Positions 6,311 to 14,499 of a stretch of 20,423 nucleotides of DNA are shown in pieces (within the stretch, counting starts at the first letter, position 1; each line of letters opens with the position of its first letter). The notes beneath the pieces are model-generated. The model worked only from the letters and a program-made list of their open reading frames with translations. It was not told the DNA's origin and searched no databases. The translations under genes and the position numbers were made by a program. This DNA is from a virus, in IMG/VR virus record IMGVR_UViG_3300009167_000038, positions 1 to 20,423 of that record, one strand, 5' to 3'.

Positions 6311-7357
6311 TTACGCCTGAGCGCGCTCGATAACCAAAGCAGACTTCGGCATAGTCAAAGCGCCAGAAATACGAGTCTCGATCAAATACTTATATTGGTT
6401 ATAGTCAATATCAAAGTCATCAAACATGCTCACAGCGCCACCCTTGTCGGCACCAATGGTGTAATCGTAGAGATTAGCAATAATGCCAAGCAAATCATAT
6501 TCAAGGGTATCAGTTCGATGAAGGCCTTCCATTACTGGAACTTCAATAATGTTCTTAACACGAAGAACAGCCGCGAGATCAGCTTCAGTCTTGTAAATCC
6601 GATACCCAAGACTATCTTTAATCAGCAGCATAGAACTCAGAAAACTGGGACTGGTGAAGAGAGTCGGACTTCCGGATCCCTTATAATTAACTCGAGCAGC
6701 CGTAATCTTGTCAATAACTTCCTCTGCCAAATTGTCGGTAGAGGGAAGCTGAACATGATGAGCATAAAGATCGCTATCGGTCCAAATTGGGCGGACACAG
6801 GTTTCATCAATCTTATCTTCAGAAACGCCCGAGCGACCATCACCAACCAATACTGCACGAGCAATTTCCTCATCCAGCATCATGCGCATTTCAGCTTTCA
6901 ACCATGCAACAATATCGAGATCGGTAATATCAAGAATATCATTCCGATCCAATTTCTGCTTCTTATAGATCGTGGTCGGGGTAGTGGTGCGTTTCAGCAA
7001 ACCAAAGACTTCATCCTTTTTCAAAGCACCAGTAACATAGCCCATAGCACGAGCAGTATCAACGGTAATATCAGCATAAACACTCTTAATACGAGAAAAT
7101 GGAGTGTGGCGAGTCCCGCTCATAACAGGGGCTACCCAAGTCGTCTCACGAGCAAGAAAAGCCGGTTGCTGTTCTACCAAACGAGCATCCGGGAACAAAT
7201 AATCAATATTATCAATACCATAGGTTCCGGCGTGCTCAATAACTGCCTGCTTTAAAGAACCAAAGCGAGCTGCGTCCTTTGCAATTTGCTCGAACTGATC
7301 ATGCGAAAGATAAACTCGATTATTAACTGCTGAACCATCAAAAGCGTTTGCTTTCAT
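6311..7357 (-). CDS. Probable free major capsid protein from an internal start
   Basis: Within the protease-capsid frame, Met239 (ATG at 7357) is preceded by AAGGAGATAAAGGTACA, a strong Shine-Dalgarno sequence. Starting there gives a 348-residue protein covering the complete HK97-type capsid segment, without the protease and acidic linker. A head needs hundreds of capsid subunits but few proteases, so a nested start would solve the dosage problem. The sequence directly shows the ATG and the SD, and that the boundary coincides with the end of the linker; use of the start is inferred. The alternative is that only the fusion is made and the protease part is cut off during maturation, in which case this site would be the approximate cleavage region. 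Confidence 0.6.
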   Translation of the reverse strand: MKANAFDGSAVNNRVYLSHDQFEQIAKDAARFGSLKQAVIEHAGTYGIDNIDYLFPDARLVEQQPAFLARETTWVAPVMSGTRHTPFSRIKSVYADITVDTARAMGYVTGALKKDEVFGLLKRTTTPTTIYKKQKLDRNDILDITDLDIVAWLKAEMRMMLDEEIARAVLVGDGRSGVSEDKIDETCVRPIWTDSDLYAHHVQLPSTDNLAEEVIDKITAARVNYKGSGSPTLFTSPSFLSSMLLIKDSLGYRIYKTEADLAAVLRVKNIIEVPVMEGLHRTDTLEYDLLGIIANLYDYTIGADKGGAVSMFDDFDIDYNQYKYLIETRISGALTMPKSALVIERAQA

Positions 7358-8071
7358 TGTACCTTTATCTCCTTCATTATTAGAATTTAAATCGTCGGAT
7401 TGAGCCATTTCTTCTTCATCTAGGACACCCTCGTCAACTAGAGCGCCTACAATTGCGTATACAGCAGTCTTTTGCTTATCACTAAGAGTATCGAAAACAT
7501 CCTGAATAGTCTCATCATCTTCTGCGGGGGCATCAGCATGAGCAACTTCATTAATAGCTGGTTTAGCTACTTGATTAACTGGTTTAGATGGTTCTTCTTC
7601 TTTCTTTTCAATCTCTAAACCTGTATATATAATTGCTTCTTCATCATCGGGACTAACGCTACCATCAGAATGTTCAAAAGCAAAATTATCAATTACCGCA
7701 CCAGGATTTGCCCCAGCCATAACAAGAGAAACTTCACGGATTACACCATGAACAACGTTCTTAGCTTTCTCAATCAGTTGATTCGCGTAGATCGATAAAG
7801 ATGATACATCGCCATGTTCTACAAGAATTCGTGCATTCTTTCCTGATTCGCTAGCATTAAAAGTACAATAAGCATATACTCCATCAGCACGATTTTCAAG
7901 TAGAGCATGTCCTAGAACGTTAGATGGTTCATTATGCTGATGCTGCCAAACTAGTGGAACAACTTGGCCATCATTGCCCTTAAATGCATCTGGAAGAATC
8001 ACCCGTCCATCTGTGCATTTAAGTCCACTTTTAGTAGCATAGCCACCAAAATCGTATTTTGACTTAGCCAT
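6311..8071 (-). CDS. Fused prohead protease and HK97-type major capsid protein
   Basis: This 586-residue protein joins two head functions. Residues about 1-135 are an S78-type prohead protease: His44/His46 in VWQHQHNEPSNVLGHA, Ser93 in SSLSIYAN, and Glu113 in REVSLVMAGANPGA fit the expected catalytic positions. Residues about 136-238 are an acidic linker rich in Glu, Asp and Pro, with a helical part around 187-222, suited to a scaffold (delta-like) role. From residue 239 onward the sequence is an HK97-fold major capsid protein, with YLFPDA (291-296), HTPFSRIKS (322-330), KRTTTPTTIYKKQKLDR (360-376), EMRMMLDEEIARAVLVGDGR (394-413) and a closing DDFDIDYNQYKYLIETR segment. GAAGGAG precedes the ATG. 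A second start at codon 239 is likely (separate entry). GC content rises visibly in the capsid part. Confidence 0.95.
   Translation of the reverse strand: MAKSKYDFGGYATKSGLKCTDGRVILPDAFKGNDGQVVPLVWQHQHNEPSNVLGHALLENRADGVYAYCTFNASESGKNARILVEHGDVSSLSIYANQLIEKAKNVVHGVIREVSLVMAGANPGAVIDNFAFEHSDGSVSPDDEEAIIYTGLEIEKKEEEPSKPVNQVAKPAINEVAHADAPAEDDETIQDVFDTLSDKQKTAVYAIVGALVDEGVLDEEEMAQSDDLNSNNEGDKGTMKANAFDGSAVNNRVYLSHDQFEQIAKDAARFGSLKQAVIEHAGTYGIDNIDYLFPDARLVEQQPAFLARETTWVAPVMSGTRHTPFSRIKSVYADITVDTARAMGYVTGALKKDEVFGLLKRTTTPTTIYKKQKLDRNDILDITDLDIVAWLKAEMRMMLDEEIARAVLVGDGRSGVSEDKIDETCVRPIWTDSDLYAHHVQLPSTDNLAEEVIDKITAARVNYKGSGSPTLFTSPSFLSSMLLIKDSLGYRIYKTEADLAAVLRVKNIIEVPVMEGLHRTDTLEYDLLGIIANLYDYTIGADKGGAVSMFDDFDIDYNQYKYLIETRISGALTMPKSALVIERAQA
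7358..7375 (-). promoter_or_regulatory. Internal ribosome binding site for the capsid protein
   Basis: On the minus strand the bases before the ATG at 7357 read GAAGGAGATAAAGGTACA. AAGGAG ends 11 bases before the ATG, slightly long, and a second purine block, AAAGGT, ends 3 bases before it. The element lies in the acidic linker coding region, where the encoded residues (EGDKGT) are not expected to be constrained by catalysis. Confidence 0.55.
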
Positions 8072-8074
8072 TAT

Positions 8075-9352
8075 TTAAACTCCTTCATTTTTTTTAATCA
8101 TATCCATAATTGAGGTAGGTGGTTCACTCACTGATTCAGATGAAACAGACTGGGATTGCGGTTGAGTTTGATTAAGATTCTTATTAGTTAACTTATCAGC
8201 ACTTTCATCATTACTAGGTTTACGTCCAACAATCTGACGCAGTTCGTTAGAGCTTAGAATAGCATTTCTACTAAACTTATCCGCTACATCAGCTATTTGG
8301 CTAACTGGAACAAGCTTAAACGGATCTCTAAGTGCCTCAATAGACTGTCCTTGAGTTCTACCAGTCTTGGTTATAAAAACTCGTTTCATAGCATCTACAA
8401 CCGCAGCAAGAATTGGTTCAATTGAACGATTATAATAATTTATCATCTCTTTTTCATCTGCAGTGCCATTAAAAACAGACTCTGTTAGACCTAACTGGCT
8501 ATATAGCATTCTCGTTAAGTATTCAATCTGTCCCATCAGGTTATTTTCTGCAGGTCTGTTCAATTGAGTAACCTTCTCGGTTCCATCAGTGTAAGCGATT
8601 CCATACTTCGAATCTTGCAACTGACTTTCAATATCTTTCCTTCTAGTCTCAGCTTGTTGCCTTCGAGCTTCTGTTTTGACGACGTATGGTAGTTGGATAA
8701 TTAAATCCAACTTTCCAGATCCCGACTGCTGATCTATTACATCTAAAAGATTTAATTTCATTATAAGACGTTGTAAAGTAGAATTTGGTTCATTCATTAC
8801 TGCAAAAAGTGGATTTTCAACAATAGCAACCATTGTCTTAGGAAGGGTAATATCTTGCTTGTATCCGGTCTCTTCATTATAAACATTAACTCGAACATGT
8901 TTTGGATACCAGCTAACAATTTTTCCTGTTCGCATTGTTACAATATCATACGAACCAGTAATCGCGGGATTCATTGTTGTATCCACTGGTACTACTGCTA
9001 CAACACCTTCATCACACATAGACATTACAATATCTTGTATAAAAGCACGACCTGTTTGGTCTATATTCGCTTCTAGTGTAAGGCAATTATTAAGACCAGA
9101 TTTAATCGTTTCGATATATCTTCCATCTTCGTCAAGACGAACATGTTGAATCGGAATTGAAGCTACATCTATACCAATTCTAGTATAAATAGAAGAAATA
9201 AATGAAGTATCCACTCCGGGACGTAAACGATATAAATCTGGTCTCAGGCTATATGATGGTCCAAGACTTGTGCGATATTCTCGGTTAGACTCTCCATATC
9301 TAATGGCATTCCATGCATGTCTTAAACGATTACCAAATGAAATATTGGGCAC
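8075..9352 (-). CDS. Portal protein
   Basis: This 425-residue protein forms the dodecameric ring at one capsid vertex through which DNA is packaged and ejected. It shows the HK97-type portal pattern: an N-terminal region with SLRPDLYRLRPGVDTSFISSIYTRIGIDVASIP (about residues 35-67), a central domain with beta segments around WYPKHVRVNVYNEETG, long helices around KTEARRQQAETRRKDIESQL (226-245), and an NLMGQIEYLTRMLYSQLGLTES segment followed by NYYNRSIEPILAAVVDAMKR. The last 60 residues are rich in Gln, Ser and Asn and look unstructured. The start is GTG, supported by AAGGAGG 9 bases upstream. It directly precedes the protease-capsid fusion, as in most HK97-like phages. Length is typical of the family. 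Confidence 0.94.
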   Translation of the reverse strand: MPNISFGNRLRHAWNAIRYGESNREYRTSLGPSYSLRPDLYRLRPGVDTSFISSIYTRIGIDVASIPIQHVRLDEDGRYIETIKSGLNNCLTLEANIDQTGRAFIQDIVMSMCDEGVVAVVPVDTTMNPAITGSYDIVTMRTGKIVSWYPKHVRVNVYNEETGYKQDITLPKTMVAIVENPLFAVMNEPNSTLQRLIMKLNLLDVIDQQSGSGKLDLIIQLPYVVKTEARRQQAETRRKDIESQLQDSKYGIAYTDGTEKVTQLNRPAENNLMGQIEYLTRMLYSQLGLTESVFNGTADEKEMINYYNRSIEPILAAVVDAMKRVFITKTGRTQGQSIEALRDPFKLVPVSQIADVADKFSRNAILSSNELRQIVGRKPSNDESADKLTNKNLNQTQPQSQSVSSESVSEPPTSIMDMIKKNEGV

Positions 9353-10030: not shown

Positions 10031-10405
10031 CTACTTTTGGGTTTTAGCTTTTACTACTTTTGGTGCTTCAGTTTCTACTACTTTTGGTGCTTCAGTTTCT
10101 ACTACTTTTGGTGCTTCAGTTTCTACTATTTCAACCTTTAATGGTTTTACTTCTTTGGGCTTTGTGAAGGCGGTAATAAAGTCCATTACAAGAGCACCCG
10201 GATCGGATAGCTTTTCCAATTCTTTATAGGAATATACTTTTTTAAATTGAACCGCATGGACGGTTTTATCATTTCTTTTCCAATCCACTGTAAATGTCTC
10301 TTCTTTATTGTTTTTTACAATATCGACATTTCCTCCTAATGAATTTTCAATACGTTCAGCTATTGTATTAATAGCTCTATCCGTATAATCTACAATAGAA
10401 GTCAT
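10031..10405 (-). CDS. Small unknown protein with a repeated Pro/Glu/Val C-terminal tail
   Basis: This 124-residue protein has an N-terminal folded part of about 90 residues, mixed alpha/beta and charged, with a DYTDRAINTIAERIENSLGG helix and a FTVDWKRNDKTVHAVQFKKVYSY strand region. After KPKEVKPLKVEIV, three exact copies of an 8-residue unit (VETEAPKV in one register) form an extended acidic/proline tail that ends in a basic AKTQK. I do not recognise the family. It sits between the likely fibre-tail adaptor and the small virion protein before the portal. A tail of this kind could act as a flexible linker or stalk. The start is supported by AGGAG about 8 bases upstream. Confidence 0.55.
   Translation of the reverse strand: MTSIVDYTDRAINTIAERIENSLGGNVDIVKNNKEETFTVDWKRNDKTVHAVQFKKVYSYKELEKLSDPGALVMDFITAFTKPKEVKPLKVEIVETEAPKVVETEAPKVVETEAPKVVKAKTQK
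10053..10124 (-). repeat. Three perfect 24-bp tandem repeats
   Basis: Three identical 24-base units lie head to tail at 10053-10076, 10077-10100 and 10101-10124; similarity continues for a few bases on each side. They are in frame and encode an 8-residue unit (VETEAPKV). Perfect identity at third codon positions points to recent expansion by slippage or recombination. Confidence 0.9.
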
Positions 10406-10785: not shown

Positions 10786-13700
10786 TTACTTTCCTCTTTT
10801 ATCTCTCCACAAAATGTGACCACGCTTATCACGGAATAATACTTCGGCTCGTTTGTCTCGGAATAATACCCCGATAGAGTGGTTTCCATCATTGTAGACA
10901 TATAAAGATGGAGGTTCAGCTATAATAGATTTAGATTGATTAAGATTAATAATATTAAACCCATATAAAAGAGTTATAAGAGTAAAGATATCTATTCTTC
11001 CTAATTCAATCTCTTCAAAGATTATTGAACTATCAATTAATGATAATCCATTATCATACTGCAAATTAACACTTTCTAATAAGTATCGACTATCAAGAAT
11101 TGCAAAATCATCTAATCTTGATAATGTTAATAGTTCGTTTAACATCAATTGCGAAGAACTATTAAATATACTAAATTTGCTAACGGTGGTATTCTCGTTA
11201 ATAACAATTTGTGTAGCAATACTTAACCCATTTGATCGAGCAAATATCAAACTTTTAGAAACCTGGCATTGCACACTAGAACTTATTCCGTTAGATCGAC
11301 CAAATATTAAACTATTATATATCTTACTCTCTTCATTGATTAAGATTAAGTTCGATCGAGCAAGAGATATATCTTCAGCGACATGACTTATACCTTCTTG
11401 GAAAATCGATATAGCAGCAATACGACCTAAAGTTAAAATCTCAGTATATTGTCCAATTGTTTCATCAATTATAATTATATACATGAACTTGCTTAAAGAC
11501 ACAAGATCATTAACCTGGCACTGCGTTTCTTCACTTATAACTGCTAATCGATTTAAGAGAGTAATATCATTAAGTAGACATTGAGTCGCTTCACTTATAT
11601 CACTTAATCGAGTAAGTGTTACATCTTCACTTACATGGCTTATACCTTCTTCTAATGCTTCTATAACAATAGAATGACTAAATATAACAGCTTCATTAAT
11701 TTGGGATTCTTCAACTTCACTTATACTAGCTAATCGACTAAGTGTTACGTCTTCACTTACCTGACTTATACCTTCTTCCAATGCCTCTATAGCAATAGAA
11801 TATATCAATAAAGCACTTTCATCGATAAGAGCTTGTAATATTCCGCTTATTCCAGCTAATCGATTTAGAATTAAATCATCATTAACTTGGCATTGGCTTA
11901 TTTCATCTATTCCAGCCAAGCGACTAAGGCTTACATCCTCACTTACATGACTTATACCTTCTTCTAAAGCTTCTATAGCCATAGAACGAGCTAATATAAC
12001 TGTTTCATTAATAAAGCCTTGTGCTTCTTCTAGTACAGATATACCAATAAAATCTTCTAAAGTGGTGGCATCATTTTCAACAGTCTGACTAACTGGAACA
12101 ATAGTATTAATACGTCCTAAACTAACTGTATCACTTTCATTAGTTTGGTCAAGTTCACCAATAGTATTAATACGTCCTAAACTAACTAAATCGCTTTCGT
12201 TGGTTTGGGTCGCAGTATCAATAACCTGGTTAATAATCAAACTGACAGCATCTTGTTCATTTGTATCAGATACAGCATCTTCTCCAGCCATACGATTTAA
12301 CGAAACCGCATCCTGCAAGTCTAGCTGATCAGAATTTAACACAGTAAGAACAAGATCCAATATAACAGCTTCTTCGACAACTCCTGGTAAATGCTTAGTA
12401 ATCGATAAGTAAATTTCCAGATTTACTGACTCATTAGTAGCCGTGCCACCAATAGCTTCTGCTACCGTGAGACCTGCAAAACGATCAAGTGTTGTTGCAT
12501 CACTTTCACTAGTTTGATCTAACTCAGATATAGCGATATGATTATCAAGAGCAACTGCATCACTCTCACTAGTTTGATCTAATTCTGAAATAGCAATATG
12601 ATTATCAAGAGCAACTGCATCATTCTCACTAGTTTGATCTAACTCAGATATACCGATATGATTATCAAGAGCAACTGCATCACTTTTAATAATTTGATCT
12701 AGTTCTGAGATACCGATATAATTATCAAGAGCAACTGCATCACTCTCAGTAGTTTGATCTGACTCAGATATAGCGATATGATTATCAAGAGTAACTGCAT
12801 CATTCTCACTAGTCTGTCCACTTGCTAAGACTCCTAAATGGTTATCTAAGATAACCGATTCTTCAACTGGACCACCCTCTGCTGCTGTATAAACTCCATA
12901 ATGTATCTGATCTGTTACCCAGTTATCGAGACTACCTGTAGTACCAATCTTAGGTGTAGCTACATCAAGCCATATTTGATCTGTAATCCAGAAACTTAGC
13001 CTATCAGGAGATAGGATTTCTAATTCATCAAGAGTATTTAATTGGAGAGATTTTCCAAGACTAGCAAAATCTTGAATATTTGTTTGGTCAGAAGAACTTA
13101 TTTGGAGAGATTTTGCTAGCGTGATGCTTTCTTCAATAGGAGCCGCACCTACAGCATTTCTTAAATGACTTAACAAACTCCCCCACGAAATTGATGGTCC
13201 ATCCTCAACCCAAAACCTACCATGGCTAGTCAGATGCCTATCATTTCCACTGTAGTCCCTAAGGGCATTTTGCAAATCCGACATCATTGGATACCAGGCC
13301 CATAGGTCAGCAAACCTAGATGGTCTATACTGATACATTTCCTGCTTTATTTCGTTCTCAGTTAGCTGGACACCATCCCATATTTTCCAGTTTGCAAGAT
13401 TTCCACGAAATGCAACGCCAGGATATGCTGCTTCGGTATTATCCTGACTAAAAAAGACGATACCCGATTCACCAGTATAGGTTTCTGCGGTTCTATTTAT
13501 TTCGAGATTGCCATTCAGATAGACTCTATTATCGTTCGCGCCATTAGATACCCAGGCAACATGATACCATGTGGAGGTTGATAAGTAAGTAGTTCCTCCC
13601 TGCCAGATGGAGTTTCCACCAATTGCAAGACGCCATAATCCATCCTCGTAAATAAGTTGAACACAGGTATTGTCACCTCCATCCATTGCGAATAAGGTAG

Positions 13701-14499
13701 GATACTCATTTGGATCACGAATATAGAACCAACCAGCGACAGTAAAATCTAGTTGAGCAGGATTACTCGCATGCTCAAGCCACTCATGAACTAATCCACC
13801 ACCACTTATTGAACCACCAGTTGGTGGTATTTGCCAGGGTACGGTGTATATCTTGCTACCCCACGATACTGGTGGATTATCATAGTCAGCAACCACACCG
13901 ACTTCACTTAGATCTGCACGCTGGTAATAATCTATAAGCCGTTCTGCACTACCTGGAAAGAACGGCCACCAACCTAAGAGGTTGGCACGCCTTACGGGTC
14001 TTGCAACATACATTTCTTGCTGTATTTCTGCCTGTGTTAGATTGGTTGTCCACGCCTTCCCAAAAGCTTGAGCACCGCTGAAGCCATTTGTTACATTATA
14101 CTCATTCCCGAAAGCAAAACCTGCTGGAGTACCTGATCTACCTGAAACATTTGTCGAGCAGGTTATATCCAATACACCATTGACATACAACTTAGCATCG
14201 GTGTCTGAGTTCCTCACTATTGCGACGTGATACCATGTGTTTATGTTATAAGGAGTCGAGGAATAATTATCCGCTCCTTCTGATGCCCACAAATCAAATA
14301 CGCTATCACCCCCTACCTCGTAAAGTTGAATAGCATCATAACCTTCTGAGTCGTTAACGCCAAGAATAGTTCTCCAACCCGTACCCCACTCGGAAACACG
14401 AACCCAACACATCAATGTATAAAGACCCGCTGCATCTAGCAGAGGTGCGCTGCTTCGTTGCAGTTTTTGATTAGTCGCAGCGGAGAAAAGAACGCCCAT
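10786..14499 (-). CDS. Large fibre-like protein: two LamG domains, long ~20-residue repeat stalk
   Basis: This 1237-residue protein starts with two LamG/concanavalin A-like domains, residues about 1-177 and 225-415. Each has the diagnostic pair TWYHVA...(residues 89-93 in the first, near 310 in the second) and YVNG/YLNG (105-108 and near 326). Each also ends in a matching helix with QEMY and R...W/WPF-type sequence, so they are probably a duplication. From about residue 450 to 1190 come some 20-21-residue repeats with hydrophobic L and I positions and acidic starts, followed by three nine-residue units (xLxRDKRxx) at the C-terminus. The architecture suggests glycan-binding heads on a long beta-rich stalk. 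No enzymatic motif is seen. GGAGCG precedes the ATG, within the end of the upstream gene. It is probably a receptor-binding or head/tail fibre; which end attaches to the particle is not shown. Confidence 0.75.
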   Translation of the reverse strand: MGVLFSAATNQKLQRSSAPLLDAAGLYTLMCWVRVSEWGTGWRTILGVNDSEGYDAIQLYEVGGDSVFDLWASEGADNYSSTPYNINTWYHVAIVRNSDTDAKLYVNGVLDITCSTNVSGRSGTPAGFAFGNEYNVTNGFSGAQAFGKAWTTNLTQAEIQQEMYVARPVRRANLLGWWPFFPGSAERLIDYYQRADLSEVGVVADYDNPPVSWGSKIYTVPWQIPPTGGSISGGGLVHEWLEHASNPAQLDFTVAGWFYIRDPNEYPTLFAMDGGDNTCVQLIYEDGLWRLAIGGNSIWQGGTTYLSTSTWYHVAWVSNGANDNRVYLNGNLEINRTAETYTGESGIVFFSQDNTEAAYPGVAFRGNLANWKIWDGVQLTENEIKQEMYQYRPSRFADLWAWYPMMSDLQNALRDYSGNDRHLTSHGRFWVEDGPSISWGSLLSHLRNAVGAAPIEESITLAKSLQISSSDQTNIQDFASLGKSLQLNTLDELEILSPDRLSFWITDQIWLDVATPKIGTTGSLDNWVTDQIHYGVYTAAEGGPVEESVILDNHLGVLASGQTSENDAVTLDNHIAISESDQTTESDAVALDNYIGISELDQIIKSDAVALDNHIGISELDQTSENDAVALDNHIAISELDQTSESDAVALDNHIAISELDQTSESDATTLDRFAGLTVAEAIGGTATNESVNLEIYLSITKHLPGVVEEAVILDLVLTVLNSDQLDLQDAVSLNRMAGEDAVSDTNEQDAVSLIINQVIDTATQTNESDLVSLGRINTIGELDQTNESDTVSLGRINTIVPVSQTVENDATTLEDFIGISVLEEAQGFINETVILARSMAIEALEEGISHVSEDVSLSRLAGIDEISQCQVNDDLILNRLAGISGILQALIDESALLIYSIAIEALEEGISQVSEDVTLSRLASISEVEESQINEAVIFSHSIVIEALEEGISHVSEDVTLTRLSDISEATQCLLNDITLLNRLAVISEETQCQVNDLVSLSKFMYIIIIDETIGQYTEILTLGRIAAISIFQEGISHVAEDISLARSNLILINEESKIYNSLIFGRSNGISSSVQCQVSKSLIFARSNGLSIATQIVINENTTVSKFSIFNSSSQLMLNELLTLSRLDDFAILDSRYLLESVNLQYDNGLSLIDSSIIFEEIELGRIDIFTLITLLYGFNIINLNQSKSIIAEPPSLYVYNDGNHSIGVLFRDKRAEVLFRDKRGHILWRDKRGK
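10789..10869 (-). repeat. Three 27-bp C-terminal units encoding RDKR motifs
   Basis: The last 27 codons before the stop consist of three nine-residue units: VLFRDKRAE, VLFRDKRGH and ILWRDKRGK. The bases are clearly related between units but not identical. The result is a compact, strongly basic terminus with alternating hydrophobic residues, unlike the acidic repeat stalk before it. Confidence 0.85.
11380..11995 (-). repeat. Dispersed second-type repeats in the fibre stalk
   Basis: A unit encoding roughly EALEEGISxVSEDVxLxRL recurs, with DNA copies of the bases CTTATACC (plus strand) at 11387, 11639, 11765 and 11951. Spacings are 252, 126 and 186 bases, i.e. 84, 42 and 62 residues, consistent with a basic 21-residue (once slightly shorter) period and two- to four-unit higher-order repeats. 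Copies share most bases, so they appear fairly recent. Confidence 0.75.
12481..12840 (-). repeat. Six near-identical 60-bp tandem repeats in the fibre stalk
   Basis: Six consecutive units of exactly 60 bases encode a 20-residue repeat close to SDAVALDNHIAISELDQTSE (residues about 554-673 of the protein). Units differ at a few bases only, and the outer copies are the most diverged. There is no insertion or deletion between units. This is the most homogeneous part of a much longer, more diverged repeat series. Confidence 0.9.

Follow-up and report, generated by a model that had tools for sequence, protein, structure and literature searches.

A conserved in-frame start at the linker-capsid boundary of phage protease-capsid fusion genes, and the free capsid protein it probably makes

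In phage lambda, Nu3 is made from an in-frame start nested within gene C, and in herpesviruses UL26 and UL26.5 give a protease-bearing long form and an in-frame C-terminal short form, the latter being a scaffold made from its own transcript. The phage gene studied here resembles C/Nu3 in that a protease-bearing long form would be accompanied by a 3'-coterminal in-frame product with its own start, since an internal in-frame start with its own Shine-Dalgarno sequence (SD) is present and the stop codon is shared. However, the nested product has here a capsid fold and not that of a scaffold: in lambda the scaffold is nested and the capsid gene is separate, whereas here the nested product would be the major capsid protein itself. 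The herpesvirus pair shares the logic of long and short forms, and as far as tested is not homologous to the present arrangement. In HK97 both folds and the order portal-protease-capsid are the same, while the protease gp4 and the capsid gp5 are separate genes whose ratio is set via separate starts, instead of one ORF with a nested start. By analogy, the lambda gene, which unites protease and scaffold according to PMC8508860, offers the nearest known parallel in logic.

Protease-capsid fusions themselves are described, in the accessible text of the two papers, for actinobacteriophages (PMC7302621) and for Pseudomonas phage MD8 (PMC8508860), where no internal capsid start is proposed. In Gordonia phage EpicDab an internal ATG precedes the protease and capsid domains, in another context (PMC9671378). 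Searches of the open literature turned up these descriptions of fusions and no internal capsid start, which may have been recognised earlier elsewhere. Our gene belongs to the same family as phrog_3270, the 'major capsid and protease fusion protein' of Gordonia, Arthrobacter, Streptomyces and Microbacterium phages, and as gp10 of Lactococcus phage 1706. On the whole, at least 257 phage records match the window protein, 245 of them over at least 80% of its length, and the annotated phrog_3270 fusion records examined list neither an internal start nor a free capsid product.

The window, meaning the whole stretch of DNA analysed, is a virus record of 20,423 bases with a tailed-phage head-tail module on its minus strand (Table 1). 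Downstream of the 586-aa ORF there are small head-tail genes and then the major tail protein. Both halves of the 586-aa protein are recognised by Pfam above cutoff (PF04586 S78 at residues 10-128, PF05065 Phage_capsid at 328-580), and phrog_3270 matches it from residue 4 to 584 with an E value of 2.6e-225, as a full-length fused family. Across the alignment H44 and S115 are invariant and H46 nearly so. A search of solved structures by sequence with the window protein gave no match; comparing its capsid half with solved HK97-fold shells by VIA-align gave a Z of 15.5 to mature HK97 (1ohg_A) over residues 270-585. In the AlphaFold model, computed from a 58-sequence alignment, the protease is ordered up to about residue 155, residues 160-187 are disordered, a hairpin follows at 189-214, and residues 213-251 are disordered again before the capsid begins. 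Elsewhere on the same strand, a 1237-aa protein (10786-14499) carries a pair of Laminin_G_3 domains along with numerous repeats, each about 20 residues long, of the type ESDAVALDNHIAISELDQT, and a 124-aa protein (10031-10405) ends at its C-terminus in three copies of VVETEAPK.

Table 1. Coordinates of the protease-capsid gene and of its proposed parts in the window
Feature	Position	Strand	Basis or remark
Portal gene	8075-9352	minus	directly before the 586-aa ORF in module order
Protease-capsid fusion ORF, 586 aa, phrog_3270	6311-8071	minus	ORF list, Pfam, PHROG
SD AAGGAG of the primary start (ATG 8071)	8080-8085	minus	8 nt spacer
S78 prohead protease domain, residues about 1-155	7607-8071	minus	PF04586; AlphaFold; conserved H44/H46, S115
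Acidic linker, residues 156-238, mostly disordered, helical hairpin 189-214	7358-7606	minus	AlphaFold; alignments
Internal SD AAGGAG	7369-7374	minus	sequence; conserved in relatives
Internal start codon ATG, codon 239	7355-7357	minus	sequence; NTG in all relatives
Proposed free capsid ORF, 348 aa, frame and stop common with the fusion	6311-7357	minus	comparison
HK97-fold capsid, residues about 269-586	6314-7267	minus	PF05065; VIA-align Z 15.5 to 1ohg_A

Two sets of relatives were compared with the window gene. The first holds 101 sequences, namely 80 relatives from viral contigs, the window and 20 sequences from phage records, of which 85 genes (below 85% identity) form a non-redundant subset. 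The second, genomic set consists of 74 loci from genome contigs, 69 of them scored. The genes in both sets are mutually related, so that the counts overstate independence, and the 31 lineages that differ at below 62% identity give a safer number than the full counts. The window has a single ORF, as has each relative whose ORF is complete, and no family member examined has separate protease and capsid genes as HK97 does. MT835616, at first matched only over residues 237-582 and taken for a split gene, is in fact a fusion that has a long acidic linker and a GAGGAGG...ATG of its own; two other apparent split genes, L174 and L175, also turned out to be fused. In the actinophage fused genes (L084-L101) the C-terminus runs about 75-100 residues past the end of the window protein, as an extra capsid domain or an extension.

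The sequence-only reading of the window had placed an ATG with an upstream AAGGAG exactly at the linker-capsid boundary, and both its coordinates and its codon number prove correct. The DNA of the minus strand at this site reads 5'-TAATGAAGGAGATAAAGGTACAATGAAAGCAAACG, and codon 239 lies inside the part of the linker predicted to be disordered. Among the 101 fusions, the boundary column holds NTG in 98 (91 ATG, 5 GTG, 2 TTG), and the other three have an ATG 2-5 codons upstream with the SD shifted along with it. In the genomic set NTG is present in 69 of 69, first scored as 57 ATG and 12 GTG, after which L121 was re-read as ATG; its true boundary is GAGGGAGGAACTGAACCT-ATG with an SD present. The single GTT (L039) adjoins an ATG that carries GGAGGAG. 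Relatives with valine or leucine as the boundary residue use GTG or TTG for it, though other and mostly commoner codons for both amino acids exist in most of these genes. There are nine alignment columns in which NTG is common, and only column 239 pairs it with strong SDs (SD5 0.77, against at most 0.12 in the others).

The AAGGAG hexamer is common to the internal start and to the gene's own start. We counted as an SD core any AAGG, AGGA, GGAG or GAGG within -20 to -4. Such a 4-mer core precedes 85 of 85 boundary starts but only 24% of the 2,111 other in-frame NTGs of the same genes, and for a 5-mer core the figures are 66 of 85 versus 5%. The genomic set behaves likewise, with a core at 69 of 69 boundary starts versus 23% of 1,708 other NTGs. 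None of the 154 sequences in which start codon and SD core were both scored (85 + 69) lacks either of them, and the pairing of AAGGAG with ATG across the family is, on these counts, far beyond chance. Poor conservation of the SD had been named beforehand as the result that would speak against the proposal, and the alignment of related fusions asked for as a check gives the opposite. The residues encoded by the SD differ between relatives (EGD, EGG, DGG, QGD, EEE, MED, LGG), while the nucleotides are kept. A second element, AAAGGT (7366-7361), had been read together with AAGGAG as one strong signal; this part of the claim fails, because close relatives already read ACAGGT, ATTGGT or AATAAT. The spacer of 11 nt between AAGGAG and ATG is longish, which counts against a nested start. 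In 28 genes the internal and the primary SD are equal in strength on average, with 5.43 matched bases each, so that the ratio of products is not determined by how strong the SDs are.

Whether the linker residues by themselves would spell an SD can be judged from codon choice. Duplex energy compared with synonymous resampling, the amino acids being fixed, gives a z of -2.6, a slight advantage overall, and is weakly informative, because the residues E-G-G/D spell an SD in any case and GAG-GGN pairs well; in GC-rich genes the SD pairs less well than random synonymous choices do. Codon identity was therefore used as the measure. In the genes with at least 55% GC, where the usual glutamate codon is GAG, the glutamate of the SD is GAA in 21 of 21 against 5.2 expected (product of probabilities 1.7e-15), and its glycine is GGA in 11 of 21 against 1.9 expected. 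What the GC-rich genes retain is thus the GAAGG form and not maximal pairing with the anti-SD, and in them codon identity alone is clearly constrained. Some genes of this class (e.g. L088, L090 and L092) keep GAAGG though GAGGG is computed to pair better.

Predicted local mRNA structure is lowest at the internal start, where it is weaker than in synonymous resampling (mean z +0.95, s.e. 0.09), while at five other positions of the same genes z ranges from -0.60 to -0.02. A scan of the coding (minus) strand of the linker for consensus promoters gave no promoter-like site, and such a scan could miss one; even if the linker held a promoter, the internal start would be needed.

Codon usage changes at the same place. 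Optimal codons are more frequent in the capsid part than in protease plus linker in 85 of 85 genes, and in 31 of 31 of the diverged lineages. The step is seen in AT-rich, middle and GC-rich genes (from <42% to 66% GC), and the change point lies at a bootstrap median of +2 codons from the internal start (95%, -2 to +8). After the boundary TTC, TAC, AAC, ATC, CAC and AAG go up and GCT rises over GCC, while the four-fold codons of Val, Gly and Thr show no such change, and the shift is therefore not a general one in GC or GC3; judging from these codons the signature is translational. The codon index of the linker is close to that of the protease (p 0.09), and that of the protease to that of the low-copy portal (p 0.54), whereas the capsid part exceeds both linker and protease, with p at or below about 1e-13. 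A higher index than that of the portal is likewise seen in the longest downstream ORF, assumed to encode the major tail protein, which is what an index that tracks copy number should give. Greater conservation of the capsid is no explanation, since the step persists at columns at least 90% conserved (p 4e-13). For the genomic set, in which capsid and linker were compared, the capsid is higher in 64 of 69. In the window gene alone the step has the right direction and is not significant (p 0.079). The step argues that selection has favoured stronger translation of the capsid part than of the protease part.

Three other explanations have to be weighed against these observations. All subunits might be made as fusions, with proteolysis freeing the capsid and the SD-like stretch merely reflecting an acidic, glycine-containing linker. 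The unbroken ORF in every relative, the conserved protease residues and the name that annotators give to the product agree with this, as does the interpretation of MD8 gp5 as a single-gene polyprotein in PMC8508860. Yet in such a gene nothing would hold the boundary codon to NTG, and there would be no bias to GAA and GGA, no codon switch and no opening of the mRNA, and the SD core survives changes of the amino acids it encodes; we consider fusion alone very unlikely. Even less can be said for a programmed pause, in which the SD-like sequence slows ribosomes and gives the protease time to fold ahead of capsid synthesis, no initiation taking place. The site, within disordered linker sequence that has a folded domain on either side, would suit a pause, but a pause needs no start codon, while NTG is kept through changes among Met, Val and Leu and shifts together with the SD; the switch in codon usage would also be left unexplained. 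Of the three this is the one we regard as the most improbable.

The codon step might otherwise be a relic of gene fusion, recording the different histories of two joined genes and not different expression. Both domains are indeed separate genes in HK97 (PMC8508860). However, the step is found in all GC classes from the AT-rich to the GC-rich and throughout the diverged lineages, so it is actively kept, and the linker matches the protease, so that the switch coincides with the start codon instead of the edge of the protease domain. We give this relic a very small chance, slightly below that of fusion alone. The evidence points instead to nested in-frame initiation, and very probably one gene gives a minor protease-capsid protein and a major free capsid. 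Comparison shows start, SD, open mRNA and codon switch to be conserved precisely at codon 239, and together they support the suggestion of the sequence-only reading that one gene yields both a fusion and free capsid.

From this arrangement we infer the following course of events, which includes the actual initiation, the excess of abundant free capsid over rare fusion, the co-assembly and the cleavage sites. Ribosomes starting at 8071 would make the 586-aa protease-linker-capsid fusion, and those loading at the internal SD would make a 348-aa free capsid with the same C-terminus. The two would co-assemble with the free capsid forming most subunits, and the fusion, as the minority, would bring protease into the prohead shell in a limited dose; the helical hairpin of the linker would ride in with it, perhaps as a scaffold. 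The protease would then cut itself away together with the linker, and possibly also about 30 residues from the start of the capsid. Because solved mature capsids begin to align at about residues 269-272, the leader of about 30 residues of the free capsid may be trimmed and the mature N-terminus may lie near 269-272; a terminus away from 239 would therefore be compatible with the internal start.

Single protease-capsid ORFs of different sequence families, and one distant fusion, were also inspected. In the Orlajensenviridae (cluster EE, L178-L183), the SD-like stretch AGAGGA and an ATG stand just after the protease in 6 of 6 genes, at codon 166 in BurtonThePup gp5 (L178), and the residues around and after this Met differ; no codon step is seen in these genes, where 70% GC leaves little power. 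It is possible that they hold a second, independent nested capsid start. For MD8 gp5, used as an outgroup, no SD with a start is found at the capsid boundary, the only candidates being at codons 185 and 220. These two (L176, 4371-6452) are in-frame ATGs with AAGGAGG and CAGGAG that flank the end of the protease part, and by analogy possibly serve as a scaffold or scaffold-capsid start like that of lambda Nu3. The 684-aa gene of Bifidobacterium phage BlindBasel1 (L177), a distant fusion that shares 25% identity in its capsid part, reads AAAGGGAACAAC-GTG where linker and capsid meet, at codon 276, in this one sequence.

The combination of a codon step within one ORF with a conserved SD and start offers a route to hidden nested products from sequence alone, and the nested start of the present family can be put to a direct test, since some of its phages have been isolated and grow on laboratory hosts. 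Should ribosomes indeed use the internal start, at least 257 phage records would carry a wrong annotation of the main shell protein, those examined listing one product, and there would be a simple answer to why a phage with such a fusion need not build a protease into each subunit of its shell. We see an even chance that a nested capsid start in the gene of the maturation protease is a general device for setting dose, having arisen at least two times (in the phrog_3270 phages and in Orlajensenviridae), with the fusion as the minority subunit that delivers the protease. If so, many of the annotated 'capsid-protease fusions' would be genes with two products.
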